From Malaciobacter mytili LMG 24559 (GTDB lineage Bacteria > Campylobacterota > Campylobacteria > Campylobacterales > Arcobacteraceae): a stretch of DNA of 64,000 bases. How positions within the stretch are numbered: the stretch's first letter is position 1; every line of letters starts with the position of its first letter. Position numbers and translations under genes: made by a program. The stretch covers positions 1,116,001 through 1,180,000 of the forward strand of contig NZ_CP031219.1 in NCBI RefSeq assembly GCF_003346775.1, given 5' to 3'. The notes beneath the pieces were generated by a model, which was not told the DNA's origin, made no database searches, and saw only the letters and a list, made by a program, of their open reading frames with translations. Below, piece after piece: positions 20,990-31,878 of this stretch.

Positions 20990-21643
20990 ATGGGATTTAG
21001 TCAATTAATAGAAGGAAATATTACTTTTCAAAACTCTACATTTAAAGATTATAAAGATGATTTTAAAACTTTGGTTGAAAAGGGACAAAATCCTGAGGTT
21101 TTATTTATTGGTTGCAGTGATAGTAGAGTAGTTCCAGAATTGATTATGGATTCAAAACCAGGGGATATGTTTATATTAAGAAATGTTGGAAATTTTATTC
21201 CTGCTTTTAAAGCAGATAACGATTTTCATGGAAGTGCAGCTGCTATTGAATTTGCAGTTAGTGTACTAAATGTTAAGCATATTATAGTTTGTGGTCATTC
21301 TCATTGTGGAGCTTGCAAAGCTTTATATAAGCAAATTGATGATGAAATAGGGATGATACATGTTAAAAAATGGTTAGAATTAGGTAAAACAGCAAAAGAG
21401 TATGTTTTACAAAATTATTCTACTTTAACACAAGAAGAAAAATATAGACAAACAGAAAAATACTCAATTTTATGTCAATTAAAAAATCTTATAACATATC
21501 CAGAAGTTAAAAAAAGAATAGAAAATAAAAGTTTAAAAATTCATGGTTGGTATTATAAAATAGAAGATGGTTCAATTGAATATTATAATGATAAAGAAGA
21601 TAAATTTTTTAATTTAAAAGATAAAGACTCTTTAGGTATCTAA
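20990..21643 (+). CDS. Beta-class carbonic anhydrase
   Basis: The 217-residue protein carries the beta-class zinc site: Cys42 in GCSDSRV with the Asp44/Arg46 dyad, and His103 and Cys106 in CGHSHCGACK. It interconverts CO2 and bicarbonate in the cytosol. It follows the biotin carboxylase by ten bases and is probably cotranscribed, which pairs bicarbonate supply with its consumption. Confidence 0.92.
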   Translation: MGFSQLIEGNITFQNSTFKDYKDDFKTLVEKGQNPEVLFIGCSDSRVVPELIMDSKPGDMFILRNVGNFIPAFKADNDFHGSAAAIEFAVSVLNVKHIIVCGHSHCGACKALYKQIDDEIGMIHVKKWLELGKTAKEYVLQNYSTLTQEEKYRQTEKYSILCQLKNLITYPEVKKRIENKSLKIHGWYYKIEDGSIEYYNDKEDKFFNLKDKDSLGI

Positions 21644-23882: not shown

Positions 23883-23908
23883 AAAAACTCACTATTTAGT
23901 GAGTTTTT
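23883..23908 (+). terminator. Rho-independent terminator
   Basis: AAAAACTCACTA pairs with TAGTGAGTTTTT around TT, and the right arm runs into a T tract. It starts two bases after the stop codon of the 116-residue gene. Confidence 0.8.
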
Positions 23909-24042
23909 TATAAATAAAGCAACTATGTAAGATAGTTACATCTTCTTATAAAATAGACTCTCTTATTTTTTCTGCAAGGCTAGTATTATCTAATTATTAT
24001 ATAATATTTTACAAATACAATAAAAAAGAGAGGATTTTTTAT

Positions 24043-24792
24043 ATGCTTAAAACAATGGTTTATATAATAATTGTTGCAATAATTGCTATATTATTAGGTG
24101 AGGGCGATAAAACAAAAACTTTCGCACAATGGGGATATAAAGATAACCTTGCTCCATCAAATTGGTCTTCTTTAGATGAAGAGTATAGGATTTGTAAAGA
24201 TGGGAAAACTCAATCTCCTATAAATATAGAAGATAGTGTTGATACAACTTTAGAAGAATTAACTTTTTATGATGATTCAAGAGCGACTACTTTTGAGTAT
24301 GATTCAAAAGTTTTAAAAGTTAGTTTTGCAAGGGGTAATGCAGTTGAGTTTATGAATAATGAGTATGCTTTACAACAAATGGTTTTTCATACTCCTGCTG
24401 AAAATAAAATAGAAGGTGAAGCTTTTCCTATGGAAGTACAATTAGTTCATGCTAGTAAAAAAGGCTCTATTTTAATCTTATCAGTGTTAGTTGAAGAAGA
24501 TGAAGAAACAAATATAGTTTTAAATAAACTTTTAAGAAATATTCCTTTAAAAGCTGGGGATAAAAATGAGTTAAAATCTGATATTTATGGATATGATATT
24601 TTACCTGAAGAAAAAACATATTTTACTTTTGATGGTTCTTTAACTACTCCTCCTTGTACAGAAGGTGTAAAATGGGTAGTTTTAAAAAATACAATTAAAG
24701 CTTCAAAAGATCAAATTAAAGATTTTCAGGAGCTTATGGGAAATAATGCAAGACCTATTCAAAATAAAAATGCAAGATTTATTTTAGAGTAA
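24043..24792 (+). CDS. Alpha-carbonic-anhydrase-like protein lacking two of three zinc histidines
   Basis: The 249-residue protein has an N-terminal hydrophobic signal and the alpha-carbonic anhydrase fold: WGYKDNLAPSNW near residues 30-41, QSPINI at 57-62 and DGSLTTPPCTEGVKW at 197-211, with Cys51 and Cys205 placed for the usual disulfide. The zinc site is altered. The position normally reading FHFH reads VFH, so the first ligand is Val114 and the second is His116. The usual third ligand in the EAHLVH-type strand is Gln133 (EVQLVH). With one ligand left, catalysis is unlikely, as in animal carbonic-anhydrase-related proteins. A TATAAT box lies at 24000-24005. Confidence 0.85.
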   Translation: MLKTMVYIIIVAIIAILLGEGDKTKTFAQWGYKDNLAPSNWSSLDEEYRICKDGKTQSPINIEDSVDTTLEELTFYDDSRATTFEYDSKVLKVSFARGNAVEFMNNEYALQQMVFHTPAENKIEGEAFPMEVQLVHASKKGSILILSVLVEEDEETNIVLNKLLRNIPLKAGDKNELKSDIYGYDILPEEKTYFTFDGSLTTPPCTEGVKWVVLKNTIKASKDQIKDFQELMGNNARPIQNKNARFILE

Positions 24793-24815
24793 AAGCAAGT
24801 ATTTTACTTGCTTTT
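24791..24815. terminator. Bidirectional terminator after the alpha-carbonic-anhydrase-like gene
   Basis: AAAAGCAAGTA (24791-24801) pairs with TACTTGCTTTT (24805-24815) around TTT. It starts within the + strand stop codon and covers the convergent stop codon at 24804; T tracts occur on both sides. Confidence 0.75.
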
Positions 24816-25586
24816 ATCTTCTTGTTCTTTTTTTATCTCTTCATCTAAAATTTCTAAATCAACTACTTCATCAAATTTTTTATTTTCAAGTTGAGGTTTT
24901 ATCTCTTCATTTTTAGGAGTTGAGCCATTTAAAGAAGCAATTAGTTTTGCTTCTGTTTGGGCATTTAAATTACCTTGTGCAATAGTATCAAGTATTTTAT
25001 TTGCTATTTGAAGTTTTGCTTCATTTTCTTTTGCTCTAAAATATTTTTCCATATTATCTTGATATGCTTTTAATTTATCTTTTCTTCTATTATTAAAATA
25101 AATAAAAATCGCAATACTAATAAGTAAAATAATAACACCAGTTAATAGCATGGCATAAAATTGTAATTGTTTATCTTTTTCTTTTTGTAAAGCTTCTAGT
25201 TCAAATTGAAGCCTTTTTTCTCTATTTTGTGCTTTTATTTTCTCTTTTTCAATTCTAATTTTTTCTTTTTCTATATCTGATTTTATTTTTTCTATCTCAA
25301 TATCTTTTTTATTATCAAGCTCGGCTTGTTTTTGAGCAAGAACCAATTGAGCTTCTTGTTGTTTTAGTTCTTTATTTTGAAGAATCTCTTTTTCTTTTAT
25401 ATTTAACTCTTTTTCTTTTATTGCAAAAGTTGCATTAAGTTCTTTTTGTTTTAGCTCTTTTGCTTGATCTAATTCCTTTTGTTTTAAAGCTATTTCTTCA
25501 TCACTTGGACCAAATATAGAACCACTATCACAGCCAGTAAAAGTTAATAAAAATATAAACAGTGGTAAAAATATAAATTGTTTCAA
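24804..25586 (-). CDS. Coiled-coil lipoprotein with internal membrane helix
   Basis: The 260-residue protein has a lipoprotein signal ending FTGC (Cys19), then a long charged coiled coil (about 35-140) built from repeats such as LKQKEL and EKEKIRIEKEKIKA, then a membrane helix (about 143-165) and a 95-residue acidic cytosolic-type tail. A lipid anchor at one end and a transmembrane helix further on could tie the outer and inner membrane together across the periplasm. No family is recognised. The repeats are low-complexity K/E-rich. Confidence 0.7.
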   Translation of the reverse strand: MKQFIFLPLFIFLLTFTGCDSGSIFGPSDEEIALKQKELDQAKELKQKELNATFAIKEKELNIKEKEILQNKELKQQEAQLVLAQKQAELDNKKDIEIEKIKSDIEKEKIRIEKEKIKAQNREKRLQFELEALQKEKDKQLQFYAMLLTGVIILLISIAIFIYFNNRRKDKLKAYQDNMEKYFRAKENEAKLQIANKILDTIAQGNLNAQTEAKLIASLNGSTPKNEEIKPQLENKKFDEVVDLEILDEEIKKEQEDKSK

Positions 25587-26915: not shown

Positions 26916-27458
26916 ATGATTTTTTTAATTGAGAGTTTTATGTATAAAGTTTCAAATACTTTTTTATTTCCTGTTTTACTACTAATTGTAGGATTGTTTT
27001 TTTATTCTCTTTTTGAAATTGGGGTATTTTTTATGCAAGCCATAAAAAGAAAAATATCTTATAAAAACTATATTAAATATATTAAAAGTGAAATAAGAAG
27101 TAATCTTAGTGGTTATCCTATAATAAATTATGAAATAAGAAGAGGTTTTCATGGTATTGAAGATTTAGAAGTATTTGCTTTTAAAAAACTACAAGTCTCT
27201 TCTCTTGTAACTAAAATTTCACCTATGTTAGGACTTGTTGCTACTATGATACCAATGGGACCTGCTTTAAAAGCCTTATCAAATGGAAATGTTCAAGGAA
27301 TAAGTGAAAATCTTATTATTGCTTTTGCAGCAGTGATTTTTGCCTTAATTACATCTTCTCTTACATATTGGGTTACTACAATTAGAAAAGGTTGGTATGC
27401 CCAAGAGATAAAAGACTTACTATTATTAAGAGGAGCAAAAGATGAAACTTCTAAATAA
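26916..27458 (+). CDS. MotA/TolQ/ExbB-type proton channel protein (HmuU-like)
   Basis: The 180-residue membrane protein has one helix near residues 17-38 and two near 100-120 and 130-152, with the family core SPMLGLVATMIPMGPAL near 102-118. Such proteins form proton-conducting pentamers that power a partner protein in the periplasm. AAGGA lies six bases before the ATG. It is the first gene of the Fur-box operon and overlaps the DUF2149 gene by 17 bases. The same pair accompanies CobN-like proteins in the hmu haem-use operon of Bacteroidetes. Confidence 0.82.
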   Translation: MIFLIESFMYKVSNTFLFPVLLLIVGLFFYSLFEIGVFFMQAIKRKISYKNYIKYIKSEIRSNLSGYPIINYEIRRGFHGIEDLEVFAFKKLQVSSLVTKISPMLGLVATMIPMGPALKALSNGNVQGISENLIIAFAAVIFALITSSLTYWVTTIRKGWYAQEIKDLLLLRGAKDETSK

Positions 27459-27747
27459 TGATGAGTCTTTAAATCCTCTTTTATCTGCTGTAAACTTAGT
27501 AGATGTTTTTTTAGTAATTATTGCAACATTGATAATTTTTATTTCACAAAATCCTCTTAACCCTTTTAATAATAATGATGTAACTGTAGTTAAAAATGCA
27601 GGAAAACAGAATATGGAAATTATAGTAAAAAAAGGAAAAAAAATAAAAAAATATAAATCAAAAGGAGAAATAAGCCAAGGTAATGGAAAAGAAGCAGGAG
27701 TTGCTTATATGCTAAAAGATGGAAGTATTATATATGTTCCCAAATAA
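27442..27747 (+). CDS. DUF2149 family protein (HmuV-like, ExbD-like position)
   Basis: The 101-residue protein has one N-terminal membrane helix (NLVDVFLVIIATLIIFI near residues 18-34) and a small periplasmic domain ending GVAYMLKDGSIIYVPK, the DUF2149 pattern. The NP(L)xSxxNLVD start is characteristic. Its topology, one helix plus periplasmic domain beside a MotA/ExbB-type channel, equals that of ExbD/TolR/MotB, so it probably completes the proton channel. Second gene of the operon; the CobN-like gene follows after nine bases. Confidence 0.85.
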   Translation: MKLLNNDESLNPLLSAVNLVDVFLVIIATLIIFISQNPLNPFNNNDVTVVKNAGKQNMEIIVKKGKKIKKYKSKGEISQGNGKEAGVAYMLKDGSIIYVPK

Positions 27748-27756
27748 AGGATAAAA

Positions 27757-30700
27757 ATGAAAATAATATCTTTTTTACTACTTTTTTTCATAAATATTTA
27801 TGCAAATGATATACTAATTTTAAGTACAAATATAGGAAAAATTTCCCAAGAAGCTAAAATTAATGAGTTTATTAATATTTCAAAAAAATATAATTTGAAA
27901 GTTGATTTTAAATTTGAAAATGAACTAAATAAAGAAGAAATTTTAAATGATTTTTCAAAATATAAGATTATTATCCTTGATTCATTAGCTGGAGAAAGAT
28001 CAGTTATTTCAATGTATGAAAAGTATAACAATATATTGAAAAAGCTTAATAATATTGTAATTCTTTCTTTTATAAAAGAAGAAAACTTATATATAAAAAA
28101 TATTACTTTAGAAGATAGTATAACTTTTAATGAGTATTGGAATAATGGAGGAGAATATAACTTTATAAATCTAAGTATTTTTATAAAAAATAAATTATTA
28201 AAAATTTCAAATAAAACTTATAATAAAGCAATAGTAATTCCTAAAGATGGAATATATCATCCAAAAAAAGAAAACTTAATCTTTAATACTCTTGAAGAGT
28301 ATGCTAAGTTTTTTAAACTAAATTTACAAGTTCTTTCAAAACCACTTATTGCAATAGGCTTACATAGAGGTTCAATAGTTTCAAATAATTTAGAACATAT
28401 AAATGAAATAATTAAATATTTAGAAGAAAAAGGCTTTCAAACTCTTCCTTTTTTTACTGATGTTACAGGAGATGATTTTATAGGAAAAAAGTTTTTAACA
28501 TATGAAAATAAAACAATAGTTGATGTAATAATAAATTTTCAACTAATGATTATAAACCATGAAAAGTTAAAAAATCAGTATAAAAAACTAAATATTCCAA
28601 TTCTTCATGCATTATATTATAGTAAAGGAAATATTCAAAAATGGTATGAAGATAAACATGGCGTAGAGTTTTCAATGATTCCTATGACATATATTATTCC
28701 TGAAACCATAGGTTATTTTGATCCTTTAATTATTTCTGCACAAGATAAAATATCAAAAAAACTTAAACCAATACCTTCTCAACTTTATTCTTTAGCAAAT
28801 AAAGCAATAAATATCTCTAATTTAAAAAGAAAAGAGAATAAAGATAAAAATATAGCAATTATGTATTATAACTATCCCTTTGGGGTAAAGAATATGGGTG
28901 CAAGTTTTTTAAATATTCCTCAAAGTTTAGAAGAGGTATTTAAAGCTTTAGTTAAAGATGGGTATAGCACTACAAGTTATAATGAAAAGTATTTAATAAA
29001 AGAGTCTTCAAAAGCTTTAAAATTGATATATAAAACAGATTTTAGCAATATTGAAGATGAAATAATAAAAAATGATAATGCAGTTTTATATCCTTTAAGT
29101 GAGTATTTAAAATTTTTTAATAAATTACCATTAAAGTTAAAAGAAGAGATAAAAAGAGTTTGGAAAGAACCTTTAGATTCACAAAATTTATTTTGCAAAG
29201 ATAAGAAGTGTTATTTTGTAATACCTAGAAAAAAATTTGGAAATATACTTTTGCTTCCTCAACCAAGACGAGCTCAAGGAAATAGTAGTATAGAAAAACA
29301 TAATTCAGATATAACAAAAGATGATACTAGACTTTGGCATAATCCTTTAATCCCTATTTCCCACTCATATTTAGCTACATATTTATATGTTACAAAGCAA
29401 TTTAATGCAGATGCAATAGTACACTTTGGAACCCATGGAACTCAAGAGTGGACACCTGGCAAACAAAGAGGCTTAAGTATATATGATAGTGCTTTAGTTG
29501 TATTAAATGATACTCCTATTATATATCCATATATTACAAATAATTTAGCAGAAGCCATACAGGCAAAAAGAAGAGGAAGAGCAACTTTAATTTCCCATCA
29601 AACTCCACCTTTTTCTCTAACTGGAACATATAAAGAATTAAGTGAAATTATGGATTTAATAAACCAATACAATAATGTTGATAAGGGAGTATTAAAAGAA
29701 CAGTTAAAAAAACAAATTATAGATTTAACTATAAAAGTAAATATAAATAAAGATATAAACTTTAAAAAAGATATGATTTTAAAAGATTTTAAGGAGTATT
29801 TATCAAAAGTTGAAGATTATATATTATCTGCTTCTAAGCAAGCAATGCCCCTTGGAATGCATACCTTTGGTACTTATCCTAAAAAAGAGCATCTTATCTC
29901 TACTCTTTTACAAATGTTAGGAAATGAGTTTATAGAAATTGTAGAAGGTAATAAAAATTTTTTTACTAAAAATTATCAAAAATTTAAAGAATCAAAATCC
30001 TTTAAACTTATTGATAATTTTGTAATTAATAATAAAGATTTTAAAGAGTTAGATAATCAAGCCTTAAGGCCATATTTGCAACTTGCAAGAAAATATAAAG
30101 AGGATTTTGAAAATACAAAAGAGATAAAAAACTTTTTAAGGGCATTAAACGGTGAGTATATTCAAACAGGTATAGGAGGCGACCCTATAAGAAATCCAAA
30201 CTCACTTCCAACAGGAATAAATATGTATGGATTTGATCCAAGTAAGGTTCCTACAAAAGCTGCATATAAAACTGGTAGTAAATTAATGAAAGATTTTATT
30301 TCTAATTATTATAAAGAAAATAAAAAATATCCCAATAAATTAACTTTTAATCTTTGGTCTTTAGAGACAATGAGACATTATGGGGTTTTAGAATCACAAA
30401 TTTTGTATGCAATGGGAGTAAAACCAATTTGGAATGAAACAGGTATATCAAATAAAGTTGTTCAAAATATGGCAAAAGCAGTATTACAAAGCTATTTAGG
30501 AGAAAGTTTTTCAACTTGGCTTTCTAGTTTTATAACTGTACCAATGGTTGATTTTGTATTAAGTTTAACTCCTAAGTCTTGGTTTTTAAAAGCTAAAAAA
30601 ATATTAGAGCACTCAAAAGCAACAGTAAAAGGAGAAATAGTAGATGTAGAGATAATTCCTTATAAAAAATTAAAAAGACCTAGAATAGATGTGGTTATAA

Positions 30701-31878
30701 GTGTAACTGGGCTTTATAGGGATACTTTTCCTCAAACTATAAAGATATTAGCTAAAGCTGTTGAAAAAGTATCAAAACTTAATGAAAAAGATAACTATTT
30801 AAGACAAAATACTTTAGCTTTAGAACAAAAGTTAAACTCACTTAAAAATATAACAAAACATGAGGCTTTGTATCTTTCAACAATTAGAGTTTTTTCAAAT
30901 AAAATAGGCGATTATGGTAGTGGAGTAGGGGATATTTCAAAGAGTGCTAGATGGAAAAATGATAAAAGAATTTCTCAAAACTATGTGCAAACTCTTGGAT
31001 ATTATTATGGAAGTGATGTTAATAGATGGGGAGAAAAAAATGTTGAACTTGATTTATATAGTAAAAACTTAAGTGGTACTGATGCTGTATTTTTTTCAAG
31101 AACTTCAAATTTATATGGATTATTAACTTCTGATGATCCTTTTGAGTATTTTGGTTCTATTTCAATGGCAATTAGAAATATAGATAAAAAAAGTGTAAAA
31201 ACATATATCTCAAATTTAAGAGATACAAAAAATCCTAAAATAGAAGATACTTCTACTTTTATGGCTAAAGAGTTAAGAGGAAGATATTTTCATCCCAAAT
31301 GGATAAAACAGATGAAAGAGGAGGGATATAGTGGTACTCTTGGAGTTTTAACTGTTATGGATAATTTTTGGGGTTGGCAAGTTGTTGATCCAAATATTGT
31401 AAGAAATGATCAATGGCAAGAGTTTGTTGAGGTTTATATAAATGATAAATATAATCTAAAACTTCCTAAATGGTTTGAAAACTTTAATCCAAATGCTTTT
31501 GCTTCCTTTGTAGAGAAGATTATAGAGGCTTCAAGAAAAGGTTATTTTAAAACTGATGAAAAAACTTTAAAAAAACTAATTGCACTATATAAAAACTTAG
31601 AAGATAAATATAAAATCAAAACTTATAATAATAAATTTAAAGAGTTTATAAATAAAAAAGTGACTGGTTATGGATTAATGTCTATTAAAAATGTGCCAAC
31701 TTCTCAACAAGAAAAAAAAGTGCAAGAGCTAAAAAAAATAGAATCTCCTTTAATAAAAGGACATAAACTAGAAAAAGTAGAAGAAAAAATTGATAATAAA
31801 ATAGAAAAGCTACTTTATATATTTTTATTTACTTTAATAATACTTGGAGCTTTAATTGAATATAGAAAAAAGGATTAG
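27757..31878 (+). CDS. Periplasmic, membrane-anchored CobN-like chelatase (HmuS-like)
   Basis: The 1373-residue protein belongs to the CobN/BchH large chelatase subunits. Family marks include HFGTHGTQEWTPGK at residues 556-569, GGDPIRNPNSLPTG near 807-820, RHYGVLESQILYAMG near 874-888, RIDVVISVTGLYRD near 978-991 and GSGVGDISKSARW near 1054-1066. Unlike cytosolic CobN of cobalamin synthesis, it begins with a signal peptide (FLLLFFINIYAND) and ends with a membrane helix (about 1347-1366), so it should face the periplasm. No CobS/CobT or ChlI/ChlD partners are present. With the channel and DUF2149 genes it matches HmuS of the haem-use operon, where a CobN-like protein removes iron from haem. 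Substrate here is inferred. Confidence 0.85.
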   Translation: MKIISFLLLFFINIYANDILILSTNIGKISQEAKINEFINISKKYNLKVDFKFENELNKEEILNDFSKYKIIILDSLAGERSVISMYEKYNNILKKLNNIVILSFIKEENLYIKNITLEDSITFNEYWNNGGEYNFINLSIFIKNKLLKISNKTYNKAIVIPKDGIYHPKKENLIFNTLEEYAKFFKLNLQVLSKPLIAIGLHRGSIVSNNLEHINEIIKYLEEKGFQTLPFFTDVTGDDFIGKKFLTYENKTIVDVIINFQLMIINHEKLKNQYKKLNIPILHALYYSKGNIQKWYEDKHGVEFSMIPMTYIIPETIGYFDPLIISAQDKISKKLKPIPSQLYSLANKAINISNLKRKENKDKNIAIMYYNYPFGVKNMGASFLNIPQSLEEVFKALVKDGYSTTSYNEKYLIKESSKALKLIYKTDFSNIEDEIIKNDNAVLYPLSEYLKFFNKLPLKLKEEIKRVWKEPLDSQNLFCKDKKCYFVIPRKKFGNILLLPQPRRAQGNSSIEKHNSDITKDDTRLWHNPLIPISHSYLATYLYVTKQFNADAIVHFGTHGTQEWTPGKQRGLSIYDSALVVLNDTPIIYPYITNNLAEAIQAKRRGRATLISHQTPPFSLTGTYKELSEIMDLINQYNNVDKGVLKEQLKKQIIDLTIKVNINKDINFKKDMILKDFKEYLSKVEDYILSASKQAMPLGMHTFGTYPKKEHLISTLLQMLGNEFIEIVEGNKNFFTKNYQKFKESKSFKLIDNFVINNKDFKELDNQALRPYLQLARKYKEDFENTKEIKNFLRALNGEYIQTGIGGDPIRNPNSLPTGINMYGFDPSKVPTKAAYKTGSKLMKDFISNYYKENKKYPNKLTFNLWSLETMRHYGVLESQILYAMGVKPIWNETGISNKVVQNMAKAVLQSYLGESFSTWLSSFITVPMVDFVLSLTPKSWFLKAKKILEHSKATVKGEIVDVEIIPYKKLKRPRIDVVISVTGLYRDTFPQTIKILAKAVEKVSKLNEKDNYLRQNTLALEQKLNSLKNITKHEALYLSTIRVFSNKIGDYGSGVGDISKSARWKNDKRISQNYVQTLGYYYGSDVNRWGEKNVELDLYSKNLSGTDAVFFSRTSNLYGLLTSDDPFEYFGSISMAIRNIDKKSVKTYISNLRDTKNPKIEDTSTFMAKELRGRYFHPKWIKQMKEEGYSGTLGVLTVMDNFWGWQVVDPNIVRNDQWQEFVEVYINDKYNLKLPKWFENFNPNAFASFVEKIIEASRKGYFKTDEKTLKKLIALYKNLEDKYKIKTYNNKFKEFINKKVTGYGLMSIKNVPTSQQEKKVQELKKIESPLIKGHKLEKVEEKIDNKIEKLLYIFLFTLIILGALIEYRKKD

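Follow-up and report, generated by a model that had tools for sequence, protein, structure and literature searches.

The alpha-carbonic anhydrase gene and its surroundings

The window, i.e. the whole 64,000-nucleotide stretch of Malaciobacter mytili LMG 24559 that was analysed (NZ_CP031219.1, positions 1,116,001 to 1,180,000), contains on its forward strand a complete open reading frame at 24043..24792 with an intact frame, and its 249-aa product, here called the window alpha-CA, is a member of the alpha-carbonic anhydrase (alpha-CA) sequence and fold family. It aligns to almost the entire PF00194 profile (E 3.4e-35, 122 bits with a cut-off of 27), and its AlphaFold model (pLDDT 89.4, pTM 0.82) has its best PDB match in 4coq of Thermovibrio (VIA-align Z 32.6, rmsd 1.3, 223 residues), with PTPRZ, PTPRG, and dioscorin also among the fold matches listed. 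The gene and its closest features are:

20990..21643, + strand: beta-carbonic anhydrase (PF00484, E 6e-50; alignment)
23883..23908, called on the - strand: terminator-like, palindromic hairpin upstream of the gene (scan)
24000..24005, + strand: TATAAT, possible -10 element, alignable in the congeners G001, G003, and G005
24028..24034, + strand: GAGAGGA ribosome-binding site (sequence)
24043..24792, + strand: alpha-carbonic anhydrase homologue with V-H-Q at the zinc ligands, 249 aa (ORF, PF00194, model)
24046..24096, + strand: hydrophobic helix at the N-terminus (residues 2-18) that may be an export signal or a membrane anchor (model)
24789..24817, + strand: terminator-like hairpin 3' of the gene (scan)

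A first, sequence-only reading of this DNA had described the protein as periplasmic and expressed. The location is plausible in view of the N-terminal helix, in which T4, I8, V11, and A15 are invariant across 18 relatives, but this N-terminus shows no evident signal-peptidase site, and the protein may thus be exported or membrane-anchored. Expression is a prediction, the signals seen being the ribosome-binding site, the -10-like TATAAT, and the flanking hairpins. The -10-like element is also present in three of the five congeners, and a promoter scan called no full sigma-70 site at this position. The flanking terminator-like hairpins suggest that the gene is probably transcribed alone.

Orthologues are found in all five congeneric genomes, where they are syntenic, share 54-58% identity with the window alpha-CA, and have histidines at all three ligand positions (HHH). 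The neighbourhood shared in the genus comprises a biotin-carboxylase-like gene, the beta-carbonic anhydrase (beta-CA), an RraA-like gene, small ORFs, and the alpha-CA. As the syntenic congeners are HHH and the window alpha-CA is VHQ, the ligand loss is specific to the window lineage, and a pseudoenzyme conserved throughout the clade is ruled out. Congeneric HHH proteins are the closest relatives of the window alpha-CA, and among relatives of the gene that have a name, Arcobacter-like MAG records come nearest. The tree groups the protein with congeners and other Arcobacteraceae; synteny and tree together rule out a horizontally acquired gene of the type of the animal carbonic-anhydrase-related proteins (CARPs). 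In the 3.04 Mb genome of this member of the Campylobacterales the window alpha-CA is the sole alpha-CA, so that it is not a paralogue of an active copy, and a sequencing or frame error is ruled out by the complete genome (2 contigs), the intact frame, and the coordinated changes described below.

The intact beta-class enzyme that had been noticed nearby is indeed present: the beta-CA lies 2.4 kb upstream, and its active-site residues are apparently intact by inspection. The genome encodes two beta-CAs, and so does every congener, so that there is no extra beta-CA that would compensate for a silenced alpha-CA. Of 14 syntenic genes, the beta-CA at 20990-21643 evolves fastest on the window branch, and this may be an adjustment to the loss of the alpha-CA. 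At 26916-31878, the window contains an ExbB/TolQ-like gene, a gene of 101 aa, and a CobN-like protein of 1373 aa that has a signal peptide and, at its C-terminus, a membrane segment; the cluster resembles one for an envelope-linked chelatase or for metal uptake.

Active-site residues of the window alpha-CA

Active-site positions are numbered as in human CA II (hCA II), and the protein was aligned with 24 family members and with alpha-CAs of the PDB. From this alignment come the following residues, with the conservation among homologues added for Ile145:

24193..24195, + strand: Cys51, first disulfide cysteine, kept
24304..24309, + strand: Ser88-Lys89, replacing Gly63-His64 (proton shuttle)
24382..24384, + strand: Val114, replacing the zinc ligand His94
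24388..24390, + strand: His116, corresponding to His96, the sole remaining zinc ligand
24400..24402, + strand: Glu120, corresponding to E106 of the Thr199-Glu106 pair, kept
24439..24441, + strand: Gln133, replacing the zinc ligand His119
24475..24477, + strand: Ile145, replacing Val143 of the CO2 pocket (Val in 228/228 HHH homologues)
24643..24645, + strand: Thr201, corresponding to T199, kept
24655..24657, + strand: Cys205, second disulfide cysteine, kept

The loss of two of the three zinc ligands that the sequence-only reading had proposed is thus confirmed by alignment with bacterial alpha-CAs, and the same holds for the claim that fold and disulfide are kept (PF00194, the model, and Cys51/Cys205). 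Chance can be dismissed, since 228 of the 240 distinct homologues have His in every one of the three ligand columns. Glu131, which corresponds to E117, is kept as well, and in the CO2 pocket V143 is changed to Ile while V121, L198, and W209 are unchanged. In hCA II, kcat/Km drops about tenfold with V143I and by 10^4-10^5 with V143F or V143Y, which block CO2 (PMC7642793). The window alpha-CA thus lacks three elements of catalysis, namely the three-His ligand set, an intact CO2 pocket, and the His64 shuttle, and its catalytic silencing is judged very likely from these residues; H64K and V143I add independent support to the earlier claim of a catalytically dead protein. Against silencing, there are hCA II variants that stay active with a single carboxamide among their ligands (Lesburg 1997, cited in PMC5437132).

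Ligand variants and the CO2 pocket among homologues

With profile, protein, and peptide-pattern searches, a set of 240 distinct alpha-CAs was obtained, of which 228 are HHH and 12 are ligand variants with these triads:

VHQ: the window alpha-CA
DHQ, three proteins: L016 (Arcobacteraceae MAG), L064 (Desulfobulbus MAG), L100 (Ca. Electronema aureum)
YHQ: L153, in a genome with an additional HHH copy
AHQ: L299
THE: L302
HRQ: L258
NHH, four proteins: L261, L303, L306, L308

L153 was found by a pattern demanding His96 and Gln119, and in another search His96 was part of one of two peptide patterns; the remaining variants come from profile or protein searches that had no ligand requirement. A scan with the xHQ pattern, which fixes the loop length, His96, and Gln119 and is blind to types such as NHH, THE, and HRQ, gave hits in the window, G510, and G592 and nowhere else among 397 Campylobacterota, 345 + 194 Desulfobacterota-related, and 299 G595-phylum genomes. 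A plasmid search gave homologues that all have <60% identity, and a phage search gave seven weak matches. Phage records named Listeria or Enterococcus phage (OR846721, OR846719, OR846607, and others) contain an alpha-CA that shares about 30% identity with the window alpha-CA and is possibly a carry-over from host or prophage. No carbonic anhydrase papers on H94D were found in the literature search.

In a FastTree phylogeny, parsimony requires about 10 separate losses for the 12 variants, with L303/L306 and L064/L302 as sister pairs, and the losses are spread over Campylobacterales and Desulfobulbaceae, i.e. over two phyla. A single DHQ ancestor of all variants is ruled out by this tree. A search of orthologues for the same change, as had been suggested from the sequence, thus finds none among the congeners, and the window loss is one of about ten that are sporadic and convergent. 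His94 is lost in 11 of the 12 variants, His119 in eight, and His96 in one; since four proteins have lost His94 alone, it seems that position 94 usually goes first. The shuttle His64 is lost in 5/12 variants and in 7/228 HHH proteins.

Some of these variants have relatives in the same genome or share a genomic context. Genome G510 encodes an HHH alpha-CA together with a fast-evolving YHQ copy (L285 9442-10155, L286 5860-6579), a pair that represents a duplication followed by silencing, and the genome of the NHH protein of G253 has an HHH copy elsewhere. A tandem pair of alpha-CA genes is found in one Campylobacterales genome (G318:C315:44928-46548). In the Desulfobulbaceae, cable bacteria included, ligand variants occur in 7 of about 31 gene-carrying genomes, and in L047, L049, L051, L057, L064, L066, L068, L078, and L100 of this family the alpha-CA gene adjoins gapA or is near it.

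The loss of ligands is coupled to changes in the CO2 pocket. When 234 columns were ranked by how frequently the first seven variants differ there from the consensus of the HHH proteins, ligands 94 and 119 came out on top, followed by V143 and V121 and then by G63 and H64. In the complete set, V143 is altered in 8/12 variants (seven times to Ile, once to Phe) and in 0/228 HHH proteins (p 2e-12), and V121 is altered in 5/12 (Ile, Ile, Met, Leu, Phe) and again in 0/228 (p 1e-7). Six of the seven first variants, which served for discovery, have V143 altered, and among the sequences found later these are two of five new variants and none of 23 new HHH proteins (hypergeometric p about 0.03), from which it follows that the effect is real but not universal. 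On the tree, the changes of V143 and V121 amount to eight and five events, every one of them in variant lineages, the branches of which make up 5% of the total tree length.

The residues at position 119 could also mean that the metal site is rewired rather than lost, with Gln133 and His116, and Asp94 in the DHQ proteins, binding a metal that is perhaps not zinc and supporting a slow or altered chemistry. The replacement at 119 is Gln in seven of the eight changed proteins and Glu in the eighth, both metal-capable, E106, E117, and T199 are retained in 12/12 variants, and the eta-CA of Plasmodium (His-His-Gln) functions with a Gln at this position (PMC5437132). The window alpha-CA does not belong to the eta-CAs (H-H-Q), as its first ligand is Val, and this Val114 leaves it with at most two ligands. 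By sequence, its first shell has gained no His, Cys, or acid, and near the cavity Asp87, at position 62 by hCA II numbering, would be the single newly acquired acid. As furthermore the shuttle and the CO2 pocket are altered as well and Toxoplasma TgCA_RP (F-H-Q) is inactive (PMC5437132), a rewired metal site is quite improbable.

Retention and possible role of the probably silenced alpha-CAs

If the protein is silenced, the gene may either be on its way to being lost or be kept for something else. An early gene decay would mean that the alpha-CA is dispensable given two beta-CAs, that the active site has drifted first, and that the frame is still open because the loss is recent. Decay would fit with losses that are sporadic and terminal, with an alpha-CA gene that is present in only 25 of 104 genomes of the family, observations that also speak against a maintained pseudoenzyme, and with a genome that keeps no HHH-type paralogue. 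It would also fit with a slightly elevated rate on the window branch. Between the window gene and its congeners, second-position differences are 0.19-0.23 and third-position differences 0.36-0.43, the NG86 dN/dS is 0.45-0.54 in comparison to 0.16-0.43 for most congener pairs, with the window loss lying on a single terminal branch of one strain, and the branch is the second longest among 14 neighbouring genes. Raised dN/dS and long branch make some relaxation on the window alpha-CA possible.

Decay should, however, affect cavity and fold columns alike, and this is not what is seen. Among the columns in which at least 95% of HHH proteins agree, the cavity columns, a set hand-picked from human CA II numbering with the ligands excluded, deviate in 22% of cases in variants and in 1.0% in HHH proteins, whereas the other conserved columns deviate in 3.7% and 1.7%, respectively, and the excess in the latter stems mostly from L153. 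This concentration indicates that the change is targeted at the active site and is not a general decay. Also the repeated change of the pocket to larger hydrophobics and the recurrent Gln at position 119 are not expected from decay, and the window gene has retained its ribosome-binding site, -10-like element, and terminator. Two variant pairs have a dN/dS near 0.1, namely the NHH sisters L303/L306 with 0.10-0.13 and L064 (DHQ)/L302 (THE) with 0.12-0.15, values that fall inside or close to those of comparably diverged HHH pairs; as NHH proteins may still bind zinc, the DHQ/THE pair is the stronger case, provided that its loss is ancestral. Decay is therefore considered unlikely.

A third possibility is that the cavity has been turned over to another reaction that needs no zinc, like in the case of the Lycopodium proteins CAL-1 and CAL-2, which have mutated triads and carry out a new reaction without zinc (PMC10700139). 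Like the window alpha-CA, PtCAL-1 and PtCAL-2 are alpha-CA relatives with a mutated His triad that reside outside the cytosol, but they have a new catalytic activity, lacking two and three of the histidines, respectively, and act as a pair (PMC10700139). A new substrate would also result in cavity-focused change, and the window alpha-CA has new residues Asp87, Lys89, and Lys92 at the positions of hCA II N62, H64, and N67. Nevertheless, the cavity becomes smaller and not larger, there are no biosynthetic genes adjoining the variants that were inspected, and the fact that unrelated bacteria have arrived at the same small set of residues does not point to one new substrate, which is why such a new enzyme function is very improbable.

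The best explanation, and a fairly probable one, is that the window alpha-CA is a silenced, exported or membrane-anchored pseudoenzyme that retains fold and disulfide, can neither bind a catalytic zinc nor efficiently hydrate CO2, and is kept for a role other than CO2 hydration. Taken by itself, the retention of the gene for a non-catalytic function is reasonably probable, and in the cell envelope the protein would most likely bind something or act as a scaffold; neither a partner nor a conserved neighbouring gene pointing to a scaffold was found. The ancestor would have been an active HHH alpha-CA of the envelope, encoded at the same locus as in the congeners. Once CO2 hydration by this enzyme was no longer needed, His94 would have been lost, then His119 would have changed to Gln or Glu, of which the Gln may preserve the hydrogen bond to Glu117, and His64 would often have been lost along the same route. 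The idle pocket would then have been filled by larger hydrophobics (V143I/F, V121I/L/M/F), which may often stabilise the fold, while the scaffold was retained for another role.

There are known examples of such proteins, to which the sequence-only reading had already pointed with the third-ligand change from His to Gln, and the comparison holds, as R-H-Q is the common triplet of metazoan CARPs (PMC4981384). Animal CARPs have lost one to three zinc ligands (PMC9032886). The window alpha-CA has the anatomy of a CARP, an alpha-CA fold without one or more of the zinc-ligand histidines, but does not descend from the animal CARP clade; it would be a convergently evolved bacterial counterpart of these proteins and of TgCA_RP. 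With CARP VIII, X, and XI it shares the fold, the loss of 94, the retained 96, and Gln at 119, but residue 94 is Arg in CARPs and Val, Asp, Asn, Tyr, Ala, or Thr in the bacterial variants, and CARPs are conserved over animal evolution and found in nervous tissue, whereas the bacterial losses are sporadic, at the level of single species or genera. TgCA_RP has lost the same two ligands, with Gln at 119 and His96 kept, but is an eta-class-like, GPI-anchored, eukaryotic protein with a rhoptry role. Human CARPs have been reported to regain activity once the triplet is restored (PMC4981384); TgCA_RP is still inactive with restored histidines (PMC5437132), and therefore other sites matter.

The alpha-CAs of Thermovibrio (4coq), Persephonella (6im0), and Helicobacter pylori (4ygf) share fold, disulfide, T199, and E106 with the window alpha-CA (Z 28-33, 33-39% identity), but are active enzymes, and at the three ligands and at V143, V121, and H64 those of Thermovibrio and Persephonella have HHH, V, V, and H where the window alpha-CA has V, H, Q, I, V, and K. 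For a binding role, the CA-like domain of PTPRZ (3jxf) is instructive, as it has the same fold (Z 27.6 to the window model) and is used for protein binding in the complex of PTPRZ with contactin/CNTN1 (3s97), albeit as part of a large animal receptor and with only 29% identity to the window alpha-CA. As the CA-like domains of PTPRZ and PTPRG demonstrate, the alpha-CA fold can serve protein binding.

It can thus be proposed, tentatively and with more doubt than confidence, that bacterial alpha-CAs have a second, non-catalytic function in the envelope, and that CARP-like pseudoenzymes recur in bacterial lineages for which periplasmic CO2 hydration has become dispensable, as they do in animals and apicomplexans. 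Part of this proposal, and just as tentative, is a repeatable route of closing the site, in which 94 is lost, 119 becomes Gln or Glu, V143 and V121 are filled, and the shuttle is lost while the scaffold is kept.

CARPs have so far been discussed as animal, viral, and protist proteins, with vertebrates, insects, nematodes, viruses, and its own protist given as hosts in PMC5437132 (2017), and the bacterial losses would extend this range. A published bacterial CARP was not found in the open-access literature, to which the search was confined, so that priority is uncertain. The about ten bacterial losses beside active sister sequences lend themselves as a natural series for following the order and the coupling of changes. 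As V143 and V121 are fixed while the zinc triad is intact and altered in most of the proteins that have lost it, they may serve as a sequence test for silenced alpha-CAs that are annotated as carbonic anhydrases, and the coupling to the pocket may help to explain why TgCA_RP is not reactivated by its histidines alone. A second job of the alpha-CA fold in the bacterial envelope thereby becomes testable.
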